Source: a virus. Taken from it: 64,000 nt of DNA. Within the stretch, counting starts at the first letter, position 1, and each line of letters opens with the position of its first letter. A program made the translations under genes and the position numbers. The stretch covers positions 31,371-95,370 of IMG/VR virus record IMGVR_UViG_3300047509_000088; one strand, written 5' to 3'. Positions 9,099-62,154 of the stretch are shown one piece after another. The notes under the pieces were generated by a model. That model saw only the letters and a list, made by a program, of their open reading frames with translations, was not told the DNA's origin and did no database searches.

Positions 9099-10013
9099 TC
9101 AAGAGGTGAATGCGGTCTTGATCCTGGTCCAGAGGGTTTCTAGGGCGGTGACCCGGCCGGTCAGAGCGGAGTCGTCGTATGCCGGTCCGGCCGGTCCAGT
9201 CGGGTAGGTCATGGCGACAGCCGCCTTGGCCGCCGTCCAGTCCTGCTCGACCTTGCCCGAGAGGTTGACGACCTTGTAGTAGACCTGTTGACTGCCGACG
9301 CCCACCACGCGGACCATGAAGTGCTGTCCGTCCGGGGACCAGTCGGTCCGCTCGGTACCGGGGACGCCGACTCCTCCCCAGTCCTCCAGGGTGACATTCG
9401 CCGGGTTGCCGTCTGGCGTGACCATGTGATAGATGTGGCCATTGCCGCCGACCACAGCGTCATCCCAGCGTCCATTTCCGGACGGGTGATACATTGAGTT
9501 TCCCTCCCTTGTGGGTGGCGGTCCTGGATCAGGCGCGGGTGCGGGCCCCAGACCGAGACTTGCCATCCAGCCGGGGTCCGTGATGTTCGAGACGTCGTAG
9601 TGGCCGCCGGCACCCATCGCCGGATCAGCGTACTGCACGGCCGCCGCACCCGGGATGCTGTGCGGACGTCCCGTGTAGTGTGCGATCCAGAGCGAGTAAT
9701 TGAGCCCCGCGCATGCAGCCTGGACGGCCATCATGGTACTGAGGTTGCAGTAGATACAGGGTTTCGCCAGACCGGCGGCCTGGCGCATCCTGATCCAGCC
9801 GGGACATTCGCCGGGGGTGGCGTCTCCGGTCTCGCAGTCGAGCACATGGCCGCCGTTCCACCCGGCCGAGACCGAGATGACCAGCTTGTACGGCGTGCTG
9901 AACCGGTCCCAGTCGGCCTGTGACCAGCGATAGATCCCGTTCCCGTATCCGCCGACGGCCGGAGCATCAGCCGGGATATCTCGGGCCGTGACCGAATCGT
10001 ACAAGTCAGCCAT
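9099..10013 (-). CDS. Glycoside hydrolase-like (GH25/DUF1906-type) protein, candidate lysin
   Basis: 304 residues. The first about 180 look like a TIM-barrel lysin domain: DSVTARDIPADAPAVGGYG, VISVSAGWNGGHVLDCETG (acidic D-E pair), AGLAKPCIYCNLS, YSLWIAHYTGRP and AAAVQYADPAMGAGGHYDVS. This order is typical of GH25/DUF1906-like domains in actinobacterial phages and cell-wall enzymes. After a Pro linker comes a beta-rich domain and a short C-terminal coiled coil. No signal peptide is seen, so export would need a holin; none is obvious nearby. The start at 10013 overlaps the upstream stop by 1 nt. Confidence 0.65.
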   Translation of the reverse strand: MADLYDSVTARDIPADAPAVGGYGNGIYRWSQADWDRFSTPYKLVISVSAGWNGGHVLDCETGDATPGECPGWIRMRQAAGLAKPCIYCNLSTMMAVQAACAGLNYSLWIAHYTGRPHSIPGAAAVQYADPAMGAGGHYDVSNITDPGWMASLGLGPAPAPDPGPPPTREGNSMYHPSGNGRWDDAVVGGNGHIYHMVTPDGNPANVTLEDWGGVGVPGTERTDWSPDGQHFMVRVVGVGSQQVYYKVVNLSGKVEQDWTAAKAAVAMTYPTGPAGPAYDDSALTGRVTALETLWTRIKTAFTS

Positions 10014-14498: not shown

Positions 14499-15023
14499 CT
14501 ACCTCAGCCGAGCGACCGTCTCGACGTCCTCTTGGAGGTAGAAGACATTCATCGGACTCCAGTACAGGCTCCGAATCGACCCCTGTTTGGCCAGAAGCTG
14601 GAGGCTTGATCGGCCGATCGACAACCGCCGCCTGGTGTCCGCGCCGGTCAGGTAGCCCTCCGGCGCCGGAACCTTGATCCCCAGCTCGGCTACGGCCTTC
14701 ATGTCCAATCCGTCAAGATCGGACTCCAGCACCCACGTTCCCCCCAGCGGGTTCGGGAGCGTGACCCCAGTGACCAAGCCGGCCTCTACGAGCGCTGGGA
14801 CGTGGTTCCTGGATATTCTCAGGCGCTTGGCGGCCTCCGGCGCCGAGATGTACTCCTCGGGCAGCCGGTACGTCGCGCGGAACCGCTTAACGCTCCCAGG
14901 CGTGACCCCTCCCCCCTCGGCCGGTTCCAGTCGGCCGATCCGAAGGAGGTACATCACGTGCGGATAGCCGATTCCCAGGAGATCCGCAGCTTCGTCATAC
15001 CCTAGCTTCGCGGCGACCTCCAT
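14499..15023 (-). CDS. Multi-HTH DNA-binding protein, excisionase/MerR-like
   Basis: 174 residues with what look like three HTH units in tandem: DEAADLLGIGYPHVMYLLRIGRLEP, SAPEAAKRLRISRNHVPALVEAG and TGADTRRRLSIGRSSLQLLAKQG (cores only, residues about 10-160). Each resembles the HTH_17/excisionase fold. Probably a regulator. ATG 15023 is 8 nt from a TATACT box. Confidence 0.7.
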   Translation of the reverse strand: MEVAAKLGYDEAADLLGIGYPHVMYLLRIGRLEPAEGGGVTPGSVKRFRATYRLPEEYISAPEAAKRLRISRNHVPALVEAGLVTGVTLPNPLGGTWVLESDLDGLDMKAVAELGIKVPAPEGYLTGADTRRRLSIGRSSLQLLAKQGSIRSLYWSPMNVFYLQEDVETVARLR

Positions 15024-20615: not shown

Positions 20616-20690
20616 TGGTACCGGGGGCGGGACTCGAACCCGCACCTCCGCATCTTAAGTGCGGCCCTCTGCCAATTGGGGCACCCCGGC
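20616..20690 (-). tRNA. tRNA with anticodon UAA (Leu codon), short variable loop
   Basis: Acceptor GCCGGGG/CCCCGGT (one G-U), D-stem CCCC/GAGG with one mismatch, anticodon stem CCGCA/TGCGG with loop CTTAAGA, T-arm GCGGG-TTCGAGT-CCCGC, discriminator A and an encoded CCA. The anticodon UAA reads UUA/UUG (Leu), but the variable loop is only 4 nt. Normal tRNA-Leu has a long variable arm, so charging identity is unclear. Confidence 0.85.
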
Positions 20691-33881: not shown

Positions 33882-34124
33882 GTGGAGTTCCCAACTTCGT
33901 TAGACGTCGCGCGCCAACTAGAGTGTACGCGAGCCCATTGCCCCTGTCATCGGACTGCTCAGACAGGAACGGGGGTGACGCATTGCCCCTCCCACACCGA
34001 CGAACATGCGAGCCTATCAATAAGCCAGAGGGGCGACATGTGCTTGTGGAACGACCACGGTGGTTGTGACAAGTACGAGGTCCGGGATGCGCTGATCCGG
34101 GAAGGGATCTGGCCGCGTGTCTGA
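33882..34124 (+). CDS. CHC2-type primase zinc-finger protein
   Basis: 80 residues with CTRAHCPCH and the primase-like finger HCPSHTDEHASLSISQRGDM then CLWNDHGGC. In DnaG-type primases this finger contacts template DNA and is fused to the TOPRIM core. Here it is a separate gene, and the TOPRIM piece is at 36579, beyond a methylase gene. Overlaps the methylase by 8 bp. Confidence 0.75.
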   Translation: MEFPTSLDVARQLECTRAHCPCHRTAQTGTGVTHCPSHTDEHASLSISQRGDMCLWNDHGGCDKYEVRDALIREGIWPRV

Positions 34125-36546
34125 CAATCAACCGGCCGAGAGGCTGTTTCGCCAGCTCGTGAACAACAAGTCCGAGTTGGAGTTGTTGGAGTGGGACGAC
34201 TGCGGGTTTGATTCGCTCGTCTGTGATCCGCCGGCCGGGATCGCGTTCATGAATCGGAGCTGGGATAGCGACAAGGGCGGAAGAGATCTCTGGATTGACG
34301 AGATGACCGTCATATTTGTCGAATGCTTTCGCGTCCTGAAGCCAGGTAGTCATGGTCTCATCTGGGCGATCCCGAGGACGAGCCACTGGACCGCCACGGC
34401 GCTTGAGGATGCCGGGTTTGAGGTAAGAGACGTTATTGACCATTTGTTCGGCTGTCTGTCGGACGATATCACCGTCCTAACTCGACGTGGCTGGCTGCAT
34501 CATACCGAACTAACGTCAACCGATGAGGTTCTTCAGTCATCGGGCGATATCCTGACCTGGGCTCGACCTGAGATGGTTCACCGCTACCCGTACAGGGGTC
34601 CGATGATCAATCTCAGGAATCGCCACACCGACCAACTACTGACACCCAACCACCGTGTCTATGCTAATGTGCGGCGTTCCTCGCAATACACTTTCATCGA
34701 AAAGATGGTGGTCGAGGCGAGAGAGCTACGGCCGTCATGGGTCGTAGACCTACCGATGGCCGGCTGTCTGAATGACGGCTGGGATGGCCCCGATCCGAAG
34801 CGGGCCTATCTGGTCGGTTGGTGGTTGACCGACGCTTGGCCGCACAAAGACGGCAAGGCAGCGATGTTCTCGCAGTCTAAGCCAAAGATGCTGGCCAAGC
34901 TACGGACGGCGCTGGCTCCGTACCAACCCTCCGAGTACGTCAGGCGCGGAAAGCTGCCACAGCATTCAGATGAACATACCTTCTATGTGACTGGACCACT
35001 TGCCGACTACTTATTGGCAACATACCCCGACCGGAAGCTCGATTGGTCGGTTCTCGGGTGGTCGGTTCCGGCCCGGCATGCGCTGCTTGAGGGATTGCTG
35101 GACGGAGACGGATCTCGCCGCGAAAGTCAACACTCGGAAGCGTTCTGGTCGAAGGATCAGGAACGACGAGATATCGTGATGGCGCTGTGTGTCTCACTGA
35201 ACATCCGAGCATACGATGATCCAAAGAAGTGGGTCGTCAATCTCAATCGAACCCACAATTCAACTCAGCTCCAGAAGCATCATCGCGATGCAGCGCCACC
35301 AAGGGAATACGATGGGATCGTATGGTGCCTGACGGTACCAAGCGGGGCATTTGTCGTCAGGCGGAATGGGCGGCCGTTCATCACCGGGAACTCGGGTTTT
35401 CCGAAGGGATTGAACATCTCCAAACAGATAGACAAGATGGCCGGCGCCAAGCGGGAGGTGATTGGCCAGGGGCCAGATCACGCCAAGAGGACGTCGGCGG
35501 CCGGTCGCGGCGGAACGGTCTCTCGGGAAGGGGGGGACGCTCCACTCGGACAAATATTAACCGCTCCCGCCACACCCGAAGCCGTGAGGTGGGACGGCTG
35601 GTCAACCGCTCTCAAGCCGGCACACGAGCACTGGATCTTGGTAAGGAAGCCGCTTGAGAAGGGATTGACCGTAGCTCAAAATGTCCTCAAGTATGGGACG
35701 GGCGGGATCAATATAGACGGGTGTCGAATAGAGGGGGCGGTGCCATCCACGATCCAGGAACAATCGTCTCGGCAAGGCGAGGTCTATGGTACCGACCAGA
35801 GGAATCAAAGAGCGTTTGTCGGTAGTCCGGCTGGGCGCTGGCCCGCCAATTTGATCCTCTCGCATAATCCGGATTGCAAACTGGTCGGGACGAAGAGGGT
35901 CAAGGGCGACTTCGGAACCAGGGGAAGCGATCAGGGAAATGAGATGTACGGGCAGGGTCGGGGGATGAACCGGCCGGCGACCGGTCAGACGGTCGGGTAC
36001 GCTGACCCGGATGGCCTCGAAGAGGTCGAGGCGTGGGAGTGTGCAGAGGGCTGTCCGGTAGCAGAGCTGGATCGGCAGTCTGGTCAAACTGGAAGTAGTG
36101 AGCGCAGAGTCGCCGGACCGGGACAACAGCCGTTCAAGGTTGATAGAGGCTGGAATCAACACTCCATGACCCGAAAGGGTCAAACCGCACCCGAAAGCTA
36201 TGGCGATACAGGTGGCGCAAGTCGCTTCTTCAAGACGTTCGACGGTCGATTAGATCCAGGGTTCGCATATATACCGAAAGCTTCCACCCGCGAGCGATCC
36301 GCCGGCTTGCCAGAGGGTTCGAGATCGAGCCATCCGACTGTTAAGCCGATTGACCTCATGCGCTATCTGGTCAGACTGGTCACGCCGCCGGGTGGTGTGG
36401 TGCTCGATCCCTTTGCCGGCTCCGGGACAACCTGTATAGCGGCCGTCCTGGAGGGGATGGGGTTCATGGGGATTGAGAAGGACCCGGAGTCATACCAGAT
36501 AGCGGCTGACCGGATAAGACATTGGCTAAACCGGATGGACGGCTAG
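34117..36546 (+). CDS. DNA methylase (N4/N6 type) interrupted by an intein
   Basis: 809-residue precursor from GTG 34117. Motif IV SLVCDPPAGIAFMNRSWD is near residue 33; motif I is at the C-terminus (VLDPFAGSGTTCIAA), with SHPTVKPIDLMRYLVRL before it. This is the beta-type order of phage DNA N4/N6 methylases. The intein splits DHLFG / SGFPKGLNISKQIDKMAGA. Spliced length is about 496. It may protect phage DNA from restriction. It sits between two primase pieces. Confidence 0.9.
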   Translation: MSDNQPAERLFRQLVNNKSELELLEWDDCGFDSLVCDPPAGIAFMNRSWDSDKGGRDLWIDEMTVIFVECFRVLKPGSHGLIWAIPRTSHWTATALEDAGFEVRDVIDHLFGCLSDDITVLTRRGWLHHTELTSTDEVLQSSGDILTWARPEMVHRYPYRGPMINLRNRHTDQLLTPNHRVYANVRRSSQYTFIEKMVVEARELRPSWVVDLPMAGCLNDGWDGPDPKRAYLVGWWLTDAWPHKDGKAAMFSQSKPKMLAKLRTALAPYQPSEYVRRGKLPQHSDEHTFYVTGPLADYLLATYPDRKLDWSVLGWSVPARHALLEGLLDGDGSRRESQHSEAFWSKDQERRDIVMALCVSLNIRAYDDPKKWVVNLNRTHNSTQLQKHHRDAAPPREYDGIVWCLTVPSGAFVVRRNGRPFITGNSGFPKGLNISKQIDKMAGAKREVIGQGPDHAKRTSAAGRGGTVSREGGDAPLGQILTAPATPEAVRWDGWSTALKPAHEHWILVRKPLEKGLTVAQNVLKYGTGGINIDGCRIEGAVPSTIQEQSSRQGEVYGTDQRNQRAFVGSPAGRWPANLILSHNPDCKLVGTKRVKGDFGTRGSDQGNEMYGQGRGMNRPATGQTVGYADPDGLEEVEAWECAEGCPVAELDRQSGQTGSSERRVAGPGQQPFKVDRGWNQHSMTRKGQTAPESYGDTGGASRFFKTFDGRLDPGFAYIPKASTRERSAGLPEGSRSSHPTVKPIDLMRYLVRLVTPPGGVVLDPFAGSGTTCIAAVLEGMGFMGIEKDPESYQIAADRIRHWLNRMDG
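34453..35391 (+). other. Intein (313 residues) with in-frame LAGLIDADG domain
   Basis: Starts CLSDDITVLTRRGW (Cys1), block B-like LTPNHRVYAN, LAGLIDADG motifs AYLVGWWLTDAW (degenerate) and ALLEGLLDGDGS, end FVVRRNGRPFITGN followed by Ser +1. Unlike the intein at 1369, the endonuclease is in frame. The first motif has lost acidic spacing, so nuclease activity is uncertain; splicing residues look intact, though the usual penultimate His is Gly. Confidence 0.85.
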
Positions 36547-36578: not shown

Positions 36579-37808
36579 ATGGCCGATATCAAGTACGTCA
36601 TCCGTGATCGAGCCGGGAATCCCCTGGCGATCCATAGGCGGGTTGACTTTGTCGATTCGTCCGGCAAGTCGGATAAAGATGTGACGTGGCTCAAGTTGGA
36701 TGGAACAGCCGGATTGCCAGACGGTTTGTCGGTAAAAAGACTCTTGTACGGCCTTGAGTTGTTGGATCAATATCCAGATGTTGGGACGGTCGTGGTGTGC
36801 GAGGGCGAACCGGCGACCGATTCGGTTAATCGCGTAGGGTTCCTCGGACTGGGGACGGTCTGCGGCGCTACGACAATTCCCGATAGGGAAGTGCTGGCCA
36901 ATCTCGTGGGTAGAAAAGTGGTGCTCTGGCCCGACGCCGACCCGGCGCCCGACCCGCAGTTCCCAGAAAGATATCCGCAGGGCAAGGGGCAGTGGCACAT
37001 GGACCAAATCGCTCAAATCCTGACGGGGCTCGGAGTAGAGGTGAACATCCTCGACTGGCCGGAAGCTCCCCCCAAGGGAGACGCCGCCGACCTGATCCGG
37101 AATGGCACGGGGCCGGTCGAGGTCAAGTTGGCGACGAGGTTGAGCGTCTACATTCCTCCTCCCCCTCCCCCAGTAGCCGGCCTGAACGGAAATACGGTAA
37201 TTGGGGACGGCCGTCCGGACAAGTTGCAAGTGGAGATGTCGGACCCGAAAGTCTGGCTGCTGCATTGGCCAGGAGTGGGCGTGCAGCGTTTGTCATCGGG
37301 GCTGCTGACCGGGGCCTGGGGGAGGGTGCAGACGGCGTTCGTCGAGCAGTTCGAGCGGACACCGCGCTGGTTCCCGACCCGGACCGATACCTGGACGGCG
37401 CTCGTCTCCGACCTGATGGACGCTATGTCCCCTGGGGACCATCTCGACCCGCCGCCCGAGCTGACGATCCGTGGCCGTGTCCTCGACCTCTTGGTCAGGG
37501 TATGCGGTACAGAGCCGCCAGATGACCCAGGTGACCCCCGGGCGGGGGAGTCGAACCTGGACAGGGGGGAGGCGTGGTGGAACCTTGACGAGGGTCGTGT
37601 GTACTTCCGGTTTGGGGTGCTCTACAAGCAGCACCAGCAGGACTCGATGCCGGGCGACCGCCTGACCCGGCCGCAGATCAGGGCGGGCATCGTCGAGCTG
37701 GGGGGACAGACGTCTGAACGGGTGGATCGTACCAACCCGGTCAATCAGACAAACCGATGGCAGCAGCGGATCTCCTGGGTGCCGTGGTCCGTCCTGGTGG
37801 ATGACTAG
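36579..37808 (+). CDS. TOPRIM primase-like protein
   Basis: 409 residues. The TOPRIM core reads TVVVCEGEPATDS (E75), LGTVCGATTIPDRE and VVLWPDADPAPD (D119, D121). A Pro-rich hinge (YIPPPPPPVAG) leads to a second domain of about 200 residues without a motif I know, ending in RVYFRFGVLYKQH and WVPWSVLVDD, like C-terminal modules of some phage primases. The stop overlaps the stop of the convergent channel gene in a CTAG palindrome. Confidence 0.8.
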   Translation: MADIKYVIRDRAGNPLAIHRRVDFVDSSGKSDKDVTWLKLDGTAGLPDGLSVKRLLYGLELLDQYPDVGTVVVCEGEPATDSVNRVGFLGLGTVCGATTIPDREVLANLVGRKVVLWPDADPAPDPQFPERYPQGKGQWHMDQIAQILTGLGVEVNILDWPEAPPKGDAADLIRNGTGPVEVKLATRLSVYIPPPPPPVAGLNGNTVIGDGRPDKLQVEMSDPKVWLLHWPGVGVQRLSSGLLTGAWGRVQTAFVEQFERTPRWFPTRTDTWTALVSDLMDAMSPGDHLDPPPELTIRGRVLDLLVRVCGTEPPDDPGDPRAGESNLDRGEAWWNLDEGRVYFRFGVLYKQHQQDSMPGDRLTRPQIRAGIVELGGQTSERVDRTNPVNQTNRWQQRISWVPWSVLVDD

Positions 37809-38485
37809 CCGCGCTCCTGAAGTAGCTGGGCTAGCTGGGACTCGATCATAGCCAGCCGCGTGACAACCTCAGTCTCCTCGTGCCCGACGAAAGAGGCGGC
37901 GATGCTGCCGGCGAGGGTGCTCACCAGTCCGATGCCACCGATCATAAGGACGCCGGCCACGATCCGGCCGGGGCCGGAGTGCGGCGCGATGTCTCCGTAT
38001 CCGACGGTGGAAGCCGTCACGACCGCCCACCAGATCGCATCTCCGAGGTTCCCTCCCCCGACCGCCGCCGGCTCGATCACGCTCATCAGCGCGGCGGCGG
38101 CCATGATCACGAACGTCGCCCCTCCCGACATGTAGAGGACGCGGCGCCGGCCGGCGGTCGCCCGCAGTCCCGCAAGAGCACGGACCATGAAGGCCAGGGT
38201 CCGGACAAGTCGCAGGGCACGGGTGAAAGCCAGCGCGGATGGTAGCGCCGGGAGAGAGACGACGACGATCGCCAGGTTGAGCCAATGGGAGCGGACGTAT
38301 GCCGAACGATTATCCGCCAGAGAGAACGTGACCGTGAACTCGACCAGAAATGCCGCCCAGACCAGCCAATCCAGGATCATCAGTCCATCTGGGATAACCG
38401 GCATCCGCAGCTCGACAAGGGTGAGCGGCACAGAGAGGAGCGCCAGCGCCATCATGCCGCCGTCAACCGTCTGACGGCGGGTCAT
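37805..38485 (-). CDS. Voltage-gated potassium channel-like protein
   Basis: 226 residues with six membrane segments. Selectivity filter TVGYGD at 160-165 after pore helix DAIWWAVVTAS. Residues 86-108 (AFTRALRLVRTLAFMVRALA) carry Arg at regular spacing, as in an S4 voltage sensor. A C-terminal coiled coil (TRLAMIESQLAQLLQE) may hold the tetramer. This is the bacterial Kv layout. ATG 38485 overlaps the upstream stop. A channel in a phage-like genome is rare. Confidence 0.88.
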   Translation of the reverse strand: MTRRQTVDGGMMALALLSVPLTLVELRMPVIPDGLMILDWLVWAAFLVEFTVTFSLADNRSAYVRSHWLNLAIVVVSLPALPSALAFTRALRLVRTLAFMVRALAGLRATAGRRRVLYMSGGATFVIMAAAALMSVIEPAAVGGGNLGDAIWWAVVTASTVGYGDIAPHSGPGRIVAGVLMIGGIGLVSTLAGSIAASFVGHEETEVVTRLAMIESQLAQLLQERG

Positions 38486-38835
38486 GCCGTCACCTGGCCA
38501 CAGTACCTGCAAGCCTGTCCAGACGAAACGGGAGGCGCACCGCAGTTCGAGCACTCGGCCGCAGTCACGACCTGTTCGAGGACGTCAGCCTGACGATTGA
38601 TCCTGATGACCAGACGAGCCTGCGCCAGCATGGCAGCTTCATGGTCAATAACGGCTTGACGAGCAGCGGCCCTGCGGGATCGGTCGGCCGCTCGGTCGTT
38701 GCGCCGCGTGATGAGGATTACGGCGACCGCTGATCCCCCAAGAAGGACCGCGAATCCGTACTCTCCACCGACCGCCGCGAACACACCGACGATACCGAGG
38801 ATGGCAACCAGGGCGTCACGCTGACGGCGAATCAC
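38482..38835 (-). CDS. Membrane protein with C-terminal zinc ribbon
   Basis: 117 residues from GTG 38835 (GTGA overlap). Two membrane helices (ALVAILGIVGVFAAVGG, FAVLLGGSAVAVILIT), a charged helix, and the ribbon CSNCGAPPVSSGQACRYCGQ. The same ribbon ends the upstream protein. Confidence 0.65.
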   Translation of the reverse strand: MIRRQRDALVAILGIVGVFAAVGGEYGFAVLLGGSAVAVILITRRNDRAADRSRRAAARQAVIDHEAAMLAQARLVIRINRQADVLEQVVTAAECSNCGAPPVSSGQACRYCGQVTA

Positions 38836-39437
38836 GTCGCCACCGTGCCACAATACCTGCAAACCTGGCCAGACGGGGACGGCGGGGCGCCACAATGCGG
38901 GCACTCGGTGACGGACACGACGCCTTCGAGCTGGCCGGCAGTACGGTTAACACGGATCTGACGACGGGCCTGCTCTACCATCTCGGCCTCTTGGCGGCGC
39001 TCTCGCTCGATCCGTTCGACCTCTTGGCGGTGAGCCTTCTCTACCTGAGCGGCTGCGTGGGCGGCGTCGATACGGGCGTCGTACGCGGTCCGCTGTGGCT
39101 CAGTTTTGTCGTTGATCCACTTGACGATGACCAGTGTCTTGGCTCGAATGCTGGAGATCATCCATCCATTCGCGATTAGCCTCTTCGCCTCGCCAATCAC
39201 CGTGTTGTCAAAGCCGATGACCTGGAGCCCAATGCCGTTGGTGTATTCCACGGCCTTGGCGTACGCGACCGACGCCAGGGGGACGTTCGCTCCCCACGGC
39301 GCAATCGCAAATCTACCAGTCACGCTGATATGGAGCCGGTCGCCACGGACAGTAGCCTTGAAGGGGTCGAATAGCCCGCCGATCTTGTCCACGTTTACCG
39401 GGGGAGGAGTCCATTTGGGGGTGGTGGTGTTCTGCAT
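38832..39437 (-). CDS. PH/SHOCT-like protein with zinc ribbon
   Basis: 201 residues. A beta-rich N-terminal half (VRGDRLHISVTGRFAIAPWG, IRAKTLVIVKWIND), a long charged helix, and CPHCGAPPSPSGQVCRYCGT. ATG 39437 touches the regulatory box 39438-39473. Could be a cytoplasmic partner of the membrane proteins next to it. Confidence 0.6.
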   Translation of the reverse strand: MQNTTTPKWTPPPVNVDKIGGLFDPFKATVRGDRLHISVTGRFAIAPWGANVPLASVAYAKAVEYTNGIGLQVIGFDNTVIGEAKRLIANGWMISSIRAKTLVIVKWINDKTEPQRTAYDARIDAAHAAAQVEKAHRQEVERIERERRQEAEMVEQARRQIRVNRTAGQLEGVVSVTECPHCGAPPSPSGQVCRYCGTVAT

Positions 39438-39473
39438 GTAAACTAGGTTTACAGATCTAAGGGTAAAAGTCAA
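39438..39473 (-). promoter_or_regulatory. Promoter/operator box B1
   Basis: Minus strand: TTGACT, 16 nt, TAAACC, with a perfect palindrome GTAAAC-CTA-GTTTAC (39452-39438) at the start codon. The block TTTACCCTT.GATCTGTAAAC is shared with 41328-41366; a related GATCTGTAAAACCT is on the plus strand at 42965. Confidence 0.65.
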
Positions 39474-39482
39474 GTTCTCCGA

Positions 39483-40187
39483 TCAGATCACCCACCCGCC
39501 ACTGCCGTCAGACCGAAGCATATTGTTGGCCTGAAGGATGGCCGTGAATCGATCCGCTTCATCCTGGTCAATGAACGTTAGCTCGTGCTCGCCTCCAGTT
39601 ATGAGCGTATCGAGCTTGGTACGGAATCGGACGCGCTCCTCCAGGGACAGCGCAACAAAAAGCTCGGCGGCCTCGCGAGTGATGCCGGCAGGGATCTCCG
39701 ACGGATTAGTCGAGCCCGCGAGACGGCCGTCCGCATCCCGCACATAGCGCCACTTCGGCTGGCCGGGCTGGCTATCCCATTCAGTAGGACCATTGGTTGG
39801 CTGGCGATACTGCGGCTGGTTTCCCGGCGGTGGTTGGATGACCGGTTGTCCCTCCCTCCCTTTGGCTACAGCCCAGACGACCCAACCAACGACGAGACAG
39901 ACCAGAAGGCCAATTGCCAGACCCGGCGAGGAGCCGAGTATCACAAGCCAGACGAGAACGCCGAGGGCGATCAGGCAGCCGGCCCCGTTCGAGTTCGAAG
40001 CGGTGACCTGGCGGGACCGACGCTTGCTGTATGGCTTGCTATGGCTGTACCAGAACGGCCCGACGCCGCCCGAGATCCCGCTCGACTTGGTGCCGACCCT
40101 CACCCCGAAGATGCGCGGGCCGACTCTGACGCCTGACCGGGTGACTCTCACGCCGGGAAGAATCTTGAACCGGAATCCGAATCTCAT
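39483..40187 (-). CDS. DUF4236-like membrane protein
   Basis: 234 residues. The start MRFGFRFKILPGVRVTRSGV with later GVRVG and SGGVGPFWYS is the DUF4236 pattern. Two membrane helices follow (CLIALGVLVWLVILG, GLAIGLLVCLVVGWVVWAV), then a soluble domain (LFVALSLEERVRFRTKLDTL). Function unknown. Confidence 0.65.
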   Translation of the reverse strand: MRFGFRFKILPGVRVTRSGVRVGPRIFGVRVGTKSSGISGGVGPFWYSHSKPYSKRRSRQVTASNSNGAGCLIALGVLVWLVILGSSPGLAIGLLVCLVVGWVVWAVAKGREGQPVIQPPPGNQPQYRQPTNGPTEWDSQPGQPKWRYVRDADGRLAGSTNPSEIPAGITREAAELFVALSLEERVRFRTKLDTLITGGEHELTFIDQDEADRFTAILQANNMLRSDGSGGWVI

Positions 40188-40519
40188 GAATTATACTCCC
40201 GTGCAAACAACATCCCGATCCCACCGACCGCAACCAGACCGAGGGACGCGAACACGACCTTTGCGATCTTTGGTGGAAAGATGACCTCGGACAGAGGGGT
40301 GGGGTCGCCGAGGTATCTCTGGAGTGGTCGAAGTGGACAGTGCCCCTTGCCGATCACGAGACCGACTCCTTCCGCCGCGAGGATTCCGACCGACCACTTG
40401 AGAAGACGACCCCGCCGCCTGCCGGCTAGAGCGTGTGCCCAGACAGAGGATATGGCCCCCAGCTCGACCGCGACTATCCCGAGGTGAACGACTCGGAGGA
40501 TCTTGGCGGGTCTATTCAT
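40184..40519 (-). CDS. Membrane protein, DUF2784-like
   Basis: 111 residues with three to four helices and GKGHCPLRPLQRYLGDPTPL between them, as in small bacterial membrane proteins of unknown role. ATGA overlaps with neighbours. Confidence 0.6.
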   Translation of the reverse strand: MNRPAKILRVVHLGIVAVELGAISSVWAHALAGRRRGRLLKWSVGILAAEGVGLVIGKGHCPLRPLQRYLGDPTPLSEVIFPPKIAKVVFASLGLVAVGGIGMLFAREYNS

Positions 40520-40890
40520 CTCGTGTACTCCAGGTTGAGGGGCTGTCTATGTCCGACGAAGTGGATGAAGATCGACGTATCCCAGGTGATTGACGAATTG
40601 GGATCGCTGGCTCGGCGGACCAGCTCGAAGCGACGGTGATTCCCTTCGCGAACGATCCCGTGAGTGACGGATATGTACGCTCCGGTCTGAGGGTGAAGGA
40701 CAGACGTCAGGAGCTGGGCGTCCGTCTTGCACCGAGCCAGCGGAACCTTCCAGAACAGGGCGGGGTTGCCGGCCGCGAGATCGATCAGGTCGCGGACGAC
40801 TGCGTTCGGTCGAGGGGTCTGACCGCGAAGCTGATAGTTCGCGACCCAGGTCCGGAGGATGGCCGGGATGCCGAAGAGCCAGGTGACCAT
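40516..40890 (-). CDS. Unknown protein
   Basis: 124 residues, starting VTWLFGIPAILRTWVANYQL. The last half is beta-rich (AYISVTHGIVREGNHRRFEL). ATG 40890 is preferred; GTG 40905 is possible. Confidence 0.55.
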   Translation of the reverse strand: MVTWLFGIPAILRTWVANYQLRGQTPRPNAVVRDLIDLAAGNPALFWKVPLARCKTDAQLLTSVLHPQTGAYISVTHGIVREGNHRRFELVRRASDPNSSITWDTSIFIHFVGHRQPLNLEYTR

Positions 40891-40892
40891 AT

Positions 40893-41327
40893 CTAGACGC
40901 CCCACTTTGCCACGCCGCCATGATGTGAGCAGGCGCCGGAATGGCTGGTCGAATAGCTCACAGAGCCGTCACGACAGGTTGCGGTCGGCGTACGCGCCGC
41001 AGGCGGGGCGGGAGTCGGGACAGCCGTCGGGGTGGCGGTAGGGACAGGGGTGGCGGTCGGAGTAGCCGTGGGGGTTGGAGTAGGTACGGGTGTTTGCGTA
41101 GGGGTCGAAACGGGGGTGGGAGTAGGAGTGGGTGCGAGGGTCGGGATGGGGGTCGATACAGCCGCAGCCGGCTGATCGCTGCTGAGTGGCACGATGCCGG
41201 TCGCGGCGAGGATGGCCGTCCAGACGAAGAGGCCAATGAACCCGGCCAGGGGGACGGCGACGATGCCGGCGCCGATCTTGACGGCGAGCGGGAGGCGGGC
41301 GGTCCAGTCGAGCAATCTATTGATCAT
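40893..41327 (-). CDS. Secreted/anchored protein with Thr-Pro linker and DUF3761-like end
   Basis: 144 residues: N-terminal membrane anchor (AGIVAVPLAGFIGLFVWTAI), a PTPTPTPVSTPTQTPVP linker, and the C-terminal TCRDGSVSYSTSHSGACSHH then GGVAKW. The last part is the small Cys domain (C-DG-S...G-CS-HGGV-W) of DUF3761. Probably outside the cell. Driven by the box at 41328. Confidence 0.65.
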   Translation of the reverse strand: MINRLLDWTARLPLAVKIGAGIVAVPLAGFIGLFVWTAILAATGIVPLSSDQPAAAVSTPIPTLAPTPTPTPVSTPTQTPVPTPTPTATPTATPVPTATPTAVPTPAPPAARTPTATCRDGSVSYSTSHSGACSHHGGVAKWGV

Positions 41328-41366
41328 ATTAACTAGGTTTACAGATCCAAGGGTAAAAGGCAAATA
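41328..41366 (-). promoter_or_regulatory. Promoter/operator box B2
   Basis: Same sequence block as B1 (TTTACCCTTGGATCTGTAAA) with -35 TTGCCT; the palindrome is broken on the side nearest the ATG. Confidence 0.6.
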
Positions 41367-41756
41367 TTGAGTTCCGGCGACGGAAAATCAGATAGGGCCG
41401 TGACGGGTGTGACGGATAATGTCGATGACCCAGTTATACCCTAATTGCAGGATAAGGGTAAATCAGATATGGACCGTGACGGGTGTGACGCCCTTGGTTT
41501 TTCCCGCATACCTCGGACTGGGTCGTACGGGTCAACTCGAACCTCGGGTCGAAAGGGGCGATTCGAGGTTCGGGTCATACGGGTTGAGCCATTCTTGTTG
41601 AAGGGTCGGCCGACGGGCGCACAGCGCCCCGCGAGATGTCGCTCGACATCGGCCCTCTTGTGCGGCGCCAGCGCCCGCGTGATACGCATAGCGCGTACGC
41701 GCATAAGGGCTGACGGCGCCCGACGGGATGGTGTAGGGTATGCCCGATGAGCGTTC
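41367..41756. other. Intergenic region with a direct repeat
   Basis: No convincing gene. CCGTGACGGGTGTGACG occurs at 41398-41414 and 41474-41490 within longer similar flanks. The rest has several CGCGTA/GCGCGC runs. It separates the minus block from the next plus block and probably contains the plus promoter. Confidence 0.5.
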
Positions 41757-42949: not shown

Positions 42950-42980
42950 TTAACCGAGGTAAGGGATCTGTAAAACCTGG
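42950..42980 (+). promoter_or_regulatory. Promoter/operator box B3 upstream of the glycoside hydrolase gene
   Basis: TTTAAC, 16 nt, TAAAAC with GGATCTGTAAAACCT matching B1 and B2. About 100 nt before ATG 43086. Confidence 0.5.
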
Positions 42981-43085
42981 ATCAGCCGGCACGTTGGCTG
43001 ATCGGGTGGTAAGGTGGGCGGCTCAAGTGGGGAGAGCCGATCCTTAGCCGGGTGGGAGCCGGGCATTTCCGAGGAGTGGGCCTCG

Positions 43086-53033: not shown

Positions 53034-53108
53034 GGGCCAATAGCTCAGCCTGGACAGAGCAGTCGACTGCTAATCGACAGGTCGGGAGTTCAAATCTCCC
53101 TTGGCCCA
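53034..53108 (+). tRNA. tRNA with anticodon GCU (Ser codon), short variable loop
   Basis: Acceptor GGGCCAA/TTGGCCC (perfect), D-arm GCTC-GAGC, anticodon arm GTCGA-CTGCTAA-TCGAC, variable loop AGGTC (5 nt), T-arm GGGAG-TTCAAAT-CTCCC, discriminator A, no encoded CCA. GCU reads AGC/AGU (Ser), but tRNA-Ser needs a long variable arm. C35, U36, A20 and A73 are arginine identity elements, so charging with Arg is possible. Confidence 0.9.
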
Positions 53109-61481: not shown

Positions 61482-62081
61482 GAACATTCGACAAGCTATA
61501 GTCGCGTTGACTAGCTTTCGCTTGTCTCTTAATCGGTAGGTTCAGGTTTGATCTCTGCTTCTACCGTTCGTCAAGTTCAACCGTACTTCCTACTTGTCTG
61601 CCTCAGTGTCTTGTCCTCACTCAACAGTCAGGGTATTCCGCTCACGCACGGCCGCATGACTTACCTAGCTTCGGATGACTACCTTGGGTGGTTGCTTTCC
61701 TGGTAGTGCCGATGAGCCTATGACGTCCGGGTGTTTGTTAAGGTTCTCCGCTCTTCCGTCCCCGCCGCTTGTCTGACTGTCCATAGTAAACCATGCTTAC
61801 AGGCATCGTGCCTATCTAATATTGGGTGACTTTTACAGGTATTTGTGCAACGCCCGTTCGATCTGCTGGCGCGCGTACGCGTACGGGTGTCGTCCTGGCC
61901 GTCGGATTGGCTGGACGTCCAGATAGACGCTCGGCCGGTTGTCGAGCCGCTAGGGCCGCCGTAGGGCGCATACGCGCCATCGTGCACTCGCAACGGCGAG
62001 CACACGCTAGCTCGGAGGAGGGTACGGGCGATCCGGGATCTTGGGTTGGATCTTGCCAGGATCGATCCCGGATCGTTTGCG
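61482..62081. other. 600-nt non-coding leader region
   Basis: No gene with support on either strand. AT-richer than the rest. Small hairpin AGGCA-TCG-TGCCT (61803-61815). It may hold the promoter for the minus gene array or an untranslated RNA. Confidence 0.5.
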
Positions 62082-62154
62082 TGGTGCCGAGCGGATTCGA
62101 ACCGCTATACTCCAGCTTGGCGGGCTGGCGCTTTGTCCCTTAAGCTACGGCACC
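62082..62154 (-). tRNA. tRNA-Gly (GCC) with C33
   Basis: Acceptor GGTGCCG/CGGCACC, D-arm GCTT/AAGC, anticodon arm CCAGC-CCGCCAA-GCTGG, T-arm AGCGG-TTCGAAT-CCGCT, discriminator A. All stems pair. The anticodon is GCC, but position 33 is C where nearly all tRNAs have U, and A73 replaces the usual U73 of tRNA-Gly. Function is doubtful but possible. Confidence 0.85.

Follow-up and report, generated by a model that had tools for sequence, protein, structure and literature searches.

A Kv-architecture potassium channel gene in an accessory cassette of a tailed phage

The channel cassette and the phage that carries it

The window analysed here, a stretch of 64,000 nucleotides whose coordinates are used throughout, covers positions 31371-95370 of an IMG/VR virus record that is 95,370 bp long. 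Its minus strand encodes a Kv-type potassium channel (six transmembrane helices, TVGYGD filter) of 226 aa with an ATG start and an exact span of 37805-38485, an assignment based on the open reading frame, on Pfam, PHROG and PDB matches and on an AlphaFold2 model; a longer, GTG-started version (to 38554) was not needed and would overlap the upstream gene out of frame. The channel gene closes a run of seven minus-strand genes (41327 to 37805) that overlap or follow one another closely amid plus-strand genes, and the association with zinc-ribbon/membrane proteins behind a shared box that the initial annotation had described is supported, as a small operon, in the form of this cassette. The start of the channel gene overlaps by 4 nt the gene of a 117-aa protein (38482-38835, minus strand, GTG start) with an N-terminal membrane segment and a C-terminal zinc ribbon (CxxC...CxxC, recognised from the sequence, with Pfam Zn_ribbon_3 below cut-off), whose tail shares 61% identity over 49 aa with the tail of the adjacent upstream gene product, a 201-aa protein (38832-39437, minus strand) with a charged coiled-coil-like stretch and its own C-terminal zinc ribbon. 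This similarity extends to a 110-nt direct repeat, copy A (38471-38580) comprising the zinc-ribbon tail and the start of the channel gene and copy B (38821-38930) being 73% identical to it; what was duplicated is the zinc-ribbon end of the 201-aa protein together with the beginning of the next gene, and the channel is therefore also preceded by a zinc-ribbon tail. Further upstream on the same strand lie genes for a 234-aa protein with a hydrophobic segment (39483-40187), a 111-aa protein with membrane segments (40184-40519) and a 124-aa protein (40516-40890), none of which could be assigned to a family, and for a Pro/Thr-rich, membrane-anchored protein of 144 aa (40893-41327), which, judging from a reading of its C-terminus, is probably the one window protein that belongs to DUF3761 (1.1e-11). 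The 234-aa protein had no real relative in viral contigs. A host gene cluster identical to the cassette, which would have spoken against a viral setting, was sought by means of the 201-aa zinc-ribbon protein, for which no relatives were found in phages or viral contigs and none that was convincing in 301 Chloroflexota genomes.

The shared regulatory box noted in the initial annotation is borne out as a promoter/operator-like element of 39 bp that occurs in exactly two copies in 95 kb, with 35 of 39 bases identical. Box 1, TTGCCTTTTACCCTTGGATCTGTAAACCTAGTTAATATG, lies at the head of the cassette (41325-41363, minus strand), while box 2, TTGACTTTTACCCTTAGATCTGTAAACCTAGTTTACATG, precedes the gene of the 201-aa protein (39435-39473, minus strand) and includes a perfect palindrome, TGTAAACCTAGTTTACA, located at the start codon; each box extends into a gene's ATG (41327 for box 1 and 39437 for box 2). 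As the palindrome of box 2 reaches the start codon, the sequence suggests that an operator lies at a transcript with a short leader or none; a sigma-70 scan called neither box as a promoter. Judging from the sequence, the channel is likely to be co-expressed with the zinc-ribbon proteins. Upstream of the cassette, the intergenic region separating it from divergent genes harbours two direct repeats (41382-41414 and 41457-41490, within 41382-41490) and, when 41535-41575 is included, two direct-repeat pairs spaced 75-76 bp apart together with an imperfect inverted repeat of 17 nt; situated between the cassette and the genes read rightward, this region may have a control function. A degenerate box core, GATCTGTAAAACCTGG, is present at 42965 (plus strand), upstream of a large rightward gene starting at 43014 or 43086. 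PADLOC returned no match to the channel, and elsewhere weak matches only (E above 5e-4).

The contig is a tailed phage, in line with the phage-like genome described in the initial annotation, and the channel is not an artefact of a contig end or of host flanking DNA. The record encodes a terminase large subunit, portal, head protease and major capsid protein, in addition to helicase, exonuclease-like, endolysin-like and DUF932 genes, and the cassette is flanked by helicase and primase-like genes on the left and by tail-like and primase-like genes on the right. The alternative that the locus is a segment of a host chromosome or part of a chimeric contig is disfavoured and very improbable: the closest inspected relatives of the channel are indeed chromosomal, but phage genes flank it on both sides, its stop codon overlaps that of the convergent primase-like gene immediately to its left (37805 versus 37808), and its codon usage is that of the phage (GC3 0.80 versus 0.74 +/- 0.07; CAI 0.71 versus 0.69 +/- 0.05). 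Relatives of the terminase are spread over three groups (55% in genomes of the Acidobacteriota sample, 50% in Chloroflexota and 45% in the Actinomycetota sample), and thus do not point to any one host group. Other features noted include a DNA methylase split by an intein, with a LAGLIDADG match in the protein (34117-36546, plus strand; one intein-splicing match among the window proteins), an NAD-dependent epimerase-like gene with a LAGLIDADG-containing intein in locus L003 (11244-13349, plus strand; about 27.2-29.3 kb of the contig), about 10 kb downstream of a glycosyltransferase-like gene of the phage, and three tRNA genes of the window (Leu-TAA, 20616-20690; Ser-GCT, 53034-53108; Gly-GCC, 62081-62154). 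The phage also encodes a sortase, which is unusual for a phage (15333-15920, minus strand; Pfam Sortase, 8e-17), adjoining a small Pro/Cys-rich protein.

Predicted fold and a contracted S4 segment

Six membrane segments and the TVGYGD motif had been read from the sequence in the initial annotation, and both are upheld by the hydrophobic segments, by profile and structure matches and by the structure prediction that it had proposed as a check. The AlphaFold2 model (mean pLDDT 90, from an 81-sequence alignment) contains all expected helices, in agreement with the six hydrophobic segments, namely S1 (residues 4-27), S2 (33-56), S3 (68-84) and S4 (88-110) in the sensor part and S5 (115-137), a pore helix (147-158) and S6, which begins at residue 171 and runs as a continuous helix to 224, in the pore part. 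A four-helix S1-S4 domain ahead of the pore is thus present both in the model and in the Pfam assignment, where Ion_trans_2 (3.8e-15) and Ion_trans (8.3e-13, residues 33-202) both score above their curated cut-offs. The profile of PHROG 7872, a phage protein family without an assigned function, matches residues 10-206, which is near full length, at 2.8e-28 in this phage genome, and the best PDB sequence matches include KvLm (pore), KvAP, KcsA and MlotiK1. The selectivity filter occupies residues 160-165 (37991-38008, minus strand) in the pore loop between S5 and S6, as seen in sequence, alignment and model, and five of its six positions are invariant in the 81-sequence alignment, V161 being nearly so. 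Foldseek ranked MlotiK1 first, followed by Kv4 and Kv1 structures, and the best superpositions were with AtGORK and SthK (TM-scores of about 0.62-0.67), both of them channels without domain swapping; a viral fold library yielded partial, pore-sized matches only. From its sequence and family membership the protein would very probably form a K+-selective tetramer.

The Arg-patterned S4 described in the initial annotation is real (R89, R92, R95 and R102), but the segment (residues 88-110; 38156-38224, minus strand), as delimited by sequence comparison and the AlphaFold2 model, is contracted: compared with the close relatives displayed it lacks six residues, equivalent to two R-x-x repeats, with ungapped similarity on either side. 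Only R89, R92 and R95 are in i+3 register, R102 being additional, whereas most of those relatives have R-x-x-R-x-x-R-x-x-R-type arrays of four to five. Classical voltage sensors typically have at least four basic residues at every third S4 position, a number that the channel does not reach and that is no requirement of the Pfam family. Other members of the family, among them four phage channels (L074, L078, L083 and L084), likewise have S4 segments with no more than three basic residues in register, and the channel is accordingly a variant inside the family range. These four phage channels form a group of their own that is related to chromosomal channels of Glycomyces; in L078 and L084 the gene next to the channel resembles that of a small terminase, and a repressor was not detected there. 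At the charge-transfer positions, S2 has F46 and E49, while the acidic position of S3 is N70, a position which is also non-acidic in much of the clade to which the channel belongs. Of the initial designation as a voltage-gated K+ channel, the full six-helix Kv-type architecture therefore stands as predicted, but with a shortened S4 and Asn at the acidic position of S3 the protein is better called a Kv-architecture channel than a voltage-gated one. With two Arg repeats gone from S4, true voltage dependence seems somewhat doubtful. The shortened S4 represents a natural variant with which to ask how little of a voltage sensor suffices.

Relatives in bacteria and in other phages

The best matches to the channel in genome collections are from Acidobacteriota and one Chloroflexota metagenome-assembled genome, the nearest by HMMER being a Chloroflexota gene (49% identity). 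In a careful tree together with bacterial Kv channels, a comparison that the initial annotation had recommended, it groups with 17 bacterial channels (support 98/96), and forcing it together with the sampled phage channels was rejected (p-AU 0.0001); a placement nested inside the bacterial clade rather than sister to it was unsupported (p-AU 0.50). The closest relatives inspected are chromosomal, L089 following an SMC-like gene and L095 an adenylosuccinate synthetase-like gene, both identified by reading. Apparently the channel was captured from bacteria and its S4 shortened. Counts of independent captures across phages (14 label changes, or 18 after relabelling of possible prophages) were set aside because some of the bacterial rows are prophages. 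No channel was present in 18 terminase-related viral loci or in 7 terminase-bearing Chloroflexota loci, within the DNA fetched, and no close phage relative with the same cassette was found that would show conservation of the channel in this phage lineage. It may be that a host channel was picked up with the cassette as a decaying passenger of no specific benefit to the phage, as the long terminal branch (about 1.0), the loss of two Arg repeats from S4 and the absence of the cassette from any relative would fit. This is unlikely, however, given that the reading frame is intact, pore and filter are conserved, the fold is predicted with high confidence, codon usage is phage-like and the cassette has boxes of its own.

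The initial annotation had regarded a full Kv-type channel as unusual in a bacterial phage, a view that the channels already known do not support. A channel of 259 aa in Lactobacillus phage PLE was among the phage K+ channels reported by Greiner et al. in 2018, who called any suggested function of such channels speculative (PMC6163359). Full-length phage relatives are present in Lactobacillus phages PLE2 and JNU_P5, where the genes are labelled 'ion transporter' (records NC_031036 and MN830253), and in one Enterococcus phage assembly; PHROGs holds a full-length channel family (PHROG 7872), and 118 IMG/VR contigs, 80 of which were fetched, encode relatives. Four Listeria 'phage' matches (H1-H4) look like chromosomal KvLm in short unverified assemblies and were not counted as phage. 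Among the papers searched, we found no report on what Kv channels do for phages.

Most of the phage channels retrieved belong to temperate phages and lie beside a CI-type repressor gene and usually also an integrase gene. When every fetched locus was searched with repressor and integrase HMMs derived from three phages, both kinds of gene were detected in the fetched flanks of 59 of 85 viral channel loci, and after near-identical channels had been collapsed the order repressor, channel, integrase on one strand was found for 20 of 37 distinct channels, a further seven following a repressor only; the full arrangement is visible in PLE2 and L004. This order, seen among L004, L005 and L012-L080, may merit a study of its own. 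A position in the lysogeny module points to expression in lysogens, that is, in the carrier cell, and by analogy a lysogen-expressed channel might block DNA entry by superinfecting phages. For the channel described here such prophage-type exclusion is possible, though improbable. The location usual for PHROG 7872-type channels was not found for it, in a record that may be incomplete: the 95 kb gave no match to Phage_integrase (PF00589), Resolvase (PF00239) or HTH_3 (PF01381), all of which were matched in control genomes, and only a weak excisionase-like HTH protein (14499-15023) was detected. The phage may not be of the lysogeny-module type, or the record may be without that part, and the lysogeny analogy may for this reason not carry over.

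Possible role and comparison with known channels

Our preferred reading, to which we assign a probability of about 0.5, is that a tailed phage acquired a bacterial channel of Kv architecture and carries it, in an accessory cassette with its own boxes, as a membrane K+ conductance. Having been taken up by the phage as the last gene of a minus-strand cassette with two promoter/operator-like boxes, the channel would insert into the inner membrane of the host as a homotetramer, by way of its C-terminal coiled coil, and conduct K+, most likely during infection or carriage. An open channel would draw the membrane potential toward the value of K+ equilibrium and could thereby counter the depolarisation caused by phage DNA entry or by competing phages; by stabilising or lowering the potential of the occupied cell, the conductance might conceivably also affect how other phages bring in their DNA. 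Control of the host membrane or exclusion of other phages, functions that the initial annotation had thought conceivable, are put forward as tentative. It is distinctly less likely that the captured channel, its gating changed by the loss of two Arg repeats from S4, forms a membrane-level exclusion or host-control module with two zinc-ribbon partners and a shared operator; were this so, then in conjunction with the repressor-channel-integrase order it would mean that Kv channels are recruited by phages time and again as a means of controlling the membrane potential of the occupied cell.

The K+ conductance of the chlorovirus channel Kcv has been proposed to help DNA entry or late lysis through turgor or membrane potential, and the channel described here might likewise act as a lytic-cycle effector. 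A similar lytic role has been raised as a possibility for vibriophage channels, and phages such as T4 and T5 reportedly depend on an increased K+ conductance of the host to inject their DNA (PMC6163359). The lack of detected lysogeny genes in the record is in keeping with a lytic role. We nonetheless consider this role unlikely, as the channel gene is far from the endolysin-like gene (9099-10013) and the structural genes, and a product made after injection would come too late for the first DNA entry of the phage itself. The channel lies outside a recognisable lysogeny module and groups with a separate bacterial lineage, whereas most retrieved relatives are beside a repressor, and it is this contrast that makes it testable whether K+ channels serve phages to control the membrane potential of a cell that they infect or lysogenise, for example by keeping other phages out.

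Among known channels, chlorovirus Kcv and the pore-only channels of Pseudomonas, Acinetobacter, Streptomyces and Vibrio phages are likewise virus-encoded and share the filter motif. They are, however, mostly two-helix proteins as reported, whereas the channel described here adds a sensor-like S1-S4 domain and, with 226 aa and six helices, falls outside the Kcv-type minimal class (pore-only, two membrane helices, about 80-130 aa). Six transmembrane helices, the TVGYGD filter and a significant sequence match are what it shares with KvLm of Listeria monocytogenes and KvAP of Aeropyrum pernix, and KvLm also has a reduced S4 charge array, but at about 25-30% identity neither is a direct source. Channels of Acidobacteriota (Bryobacterales, Solibacter) and of the Chloroflexota metagenome-assembled genome are up to 49% identical over most of the length, fall in the same clade and share a similar C-terminal helix with an R-x-E-x-L-L-like pattern; they differ in being chromosomal where inspected and in an S4 with mostly about five basic residues at i+3, as opposed to three in the phage. 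The channels of PLE2/PLE and JNU_P5 (31% and 25% identity) similarly combine full-length S1-S4 with S5-P-S6 in a tailed phage, but they lie beside a CI-type repressor in temperate phages, that of PLE2 also upstream of an integrase, have longer S4 Arg arrays and, as phage channels of that type, belong to a different clade. Phage Kv-type channels were thus already known and the present channel is a new example of them; what distinguishes it is its bacterial affinity, its shortened S4 and its unusual genomic setting outside a recognisable lysogeny module.
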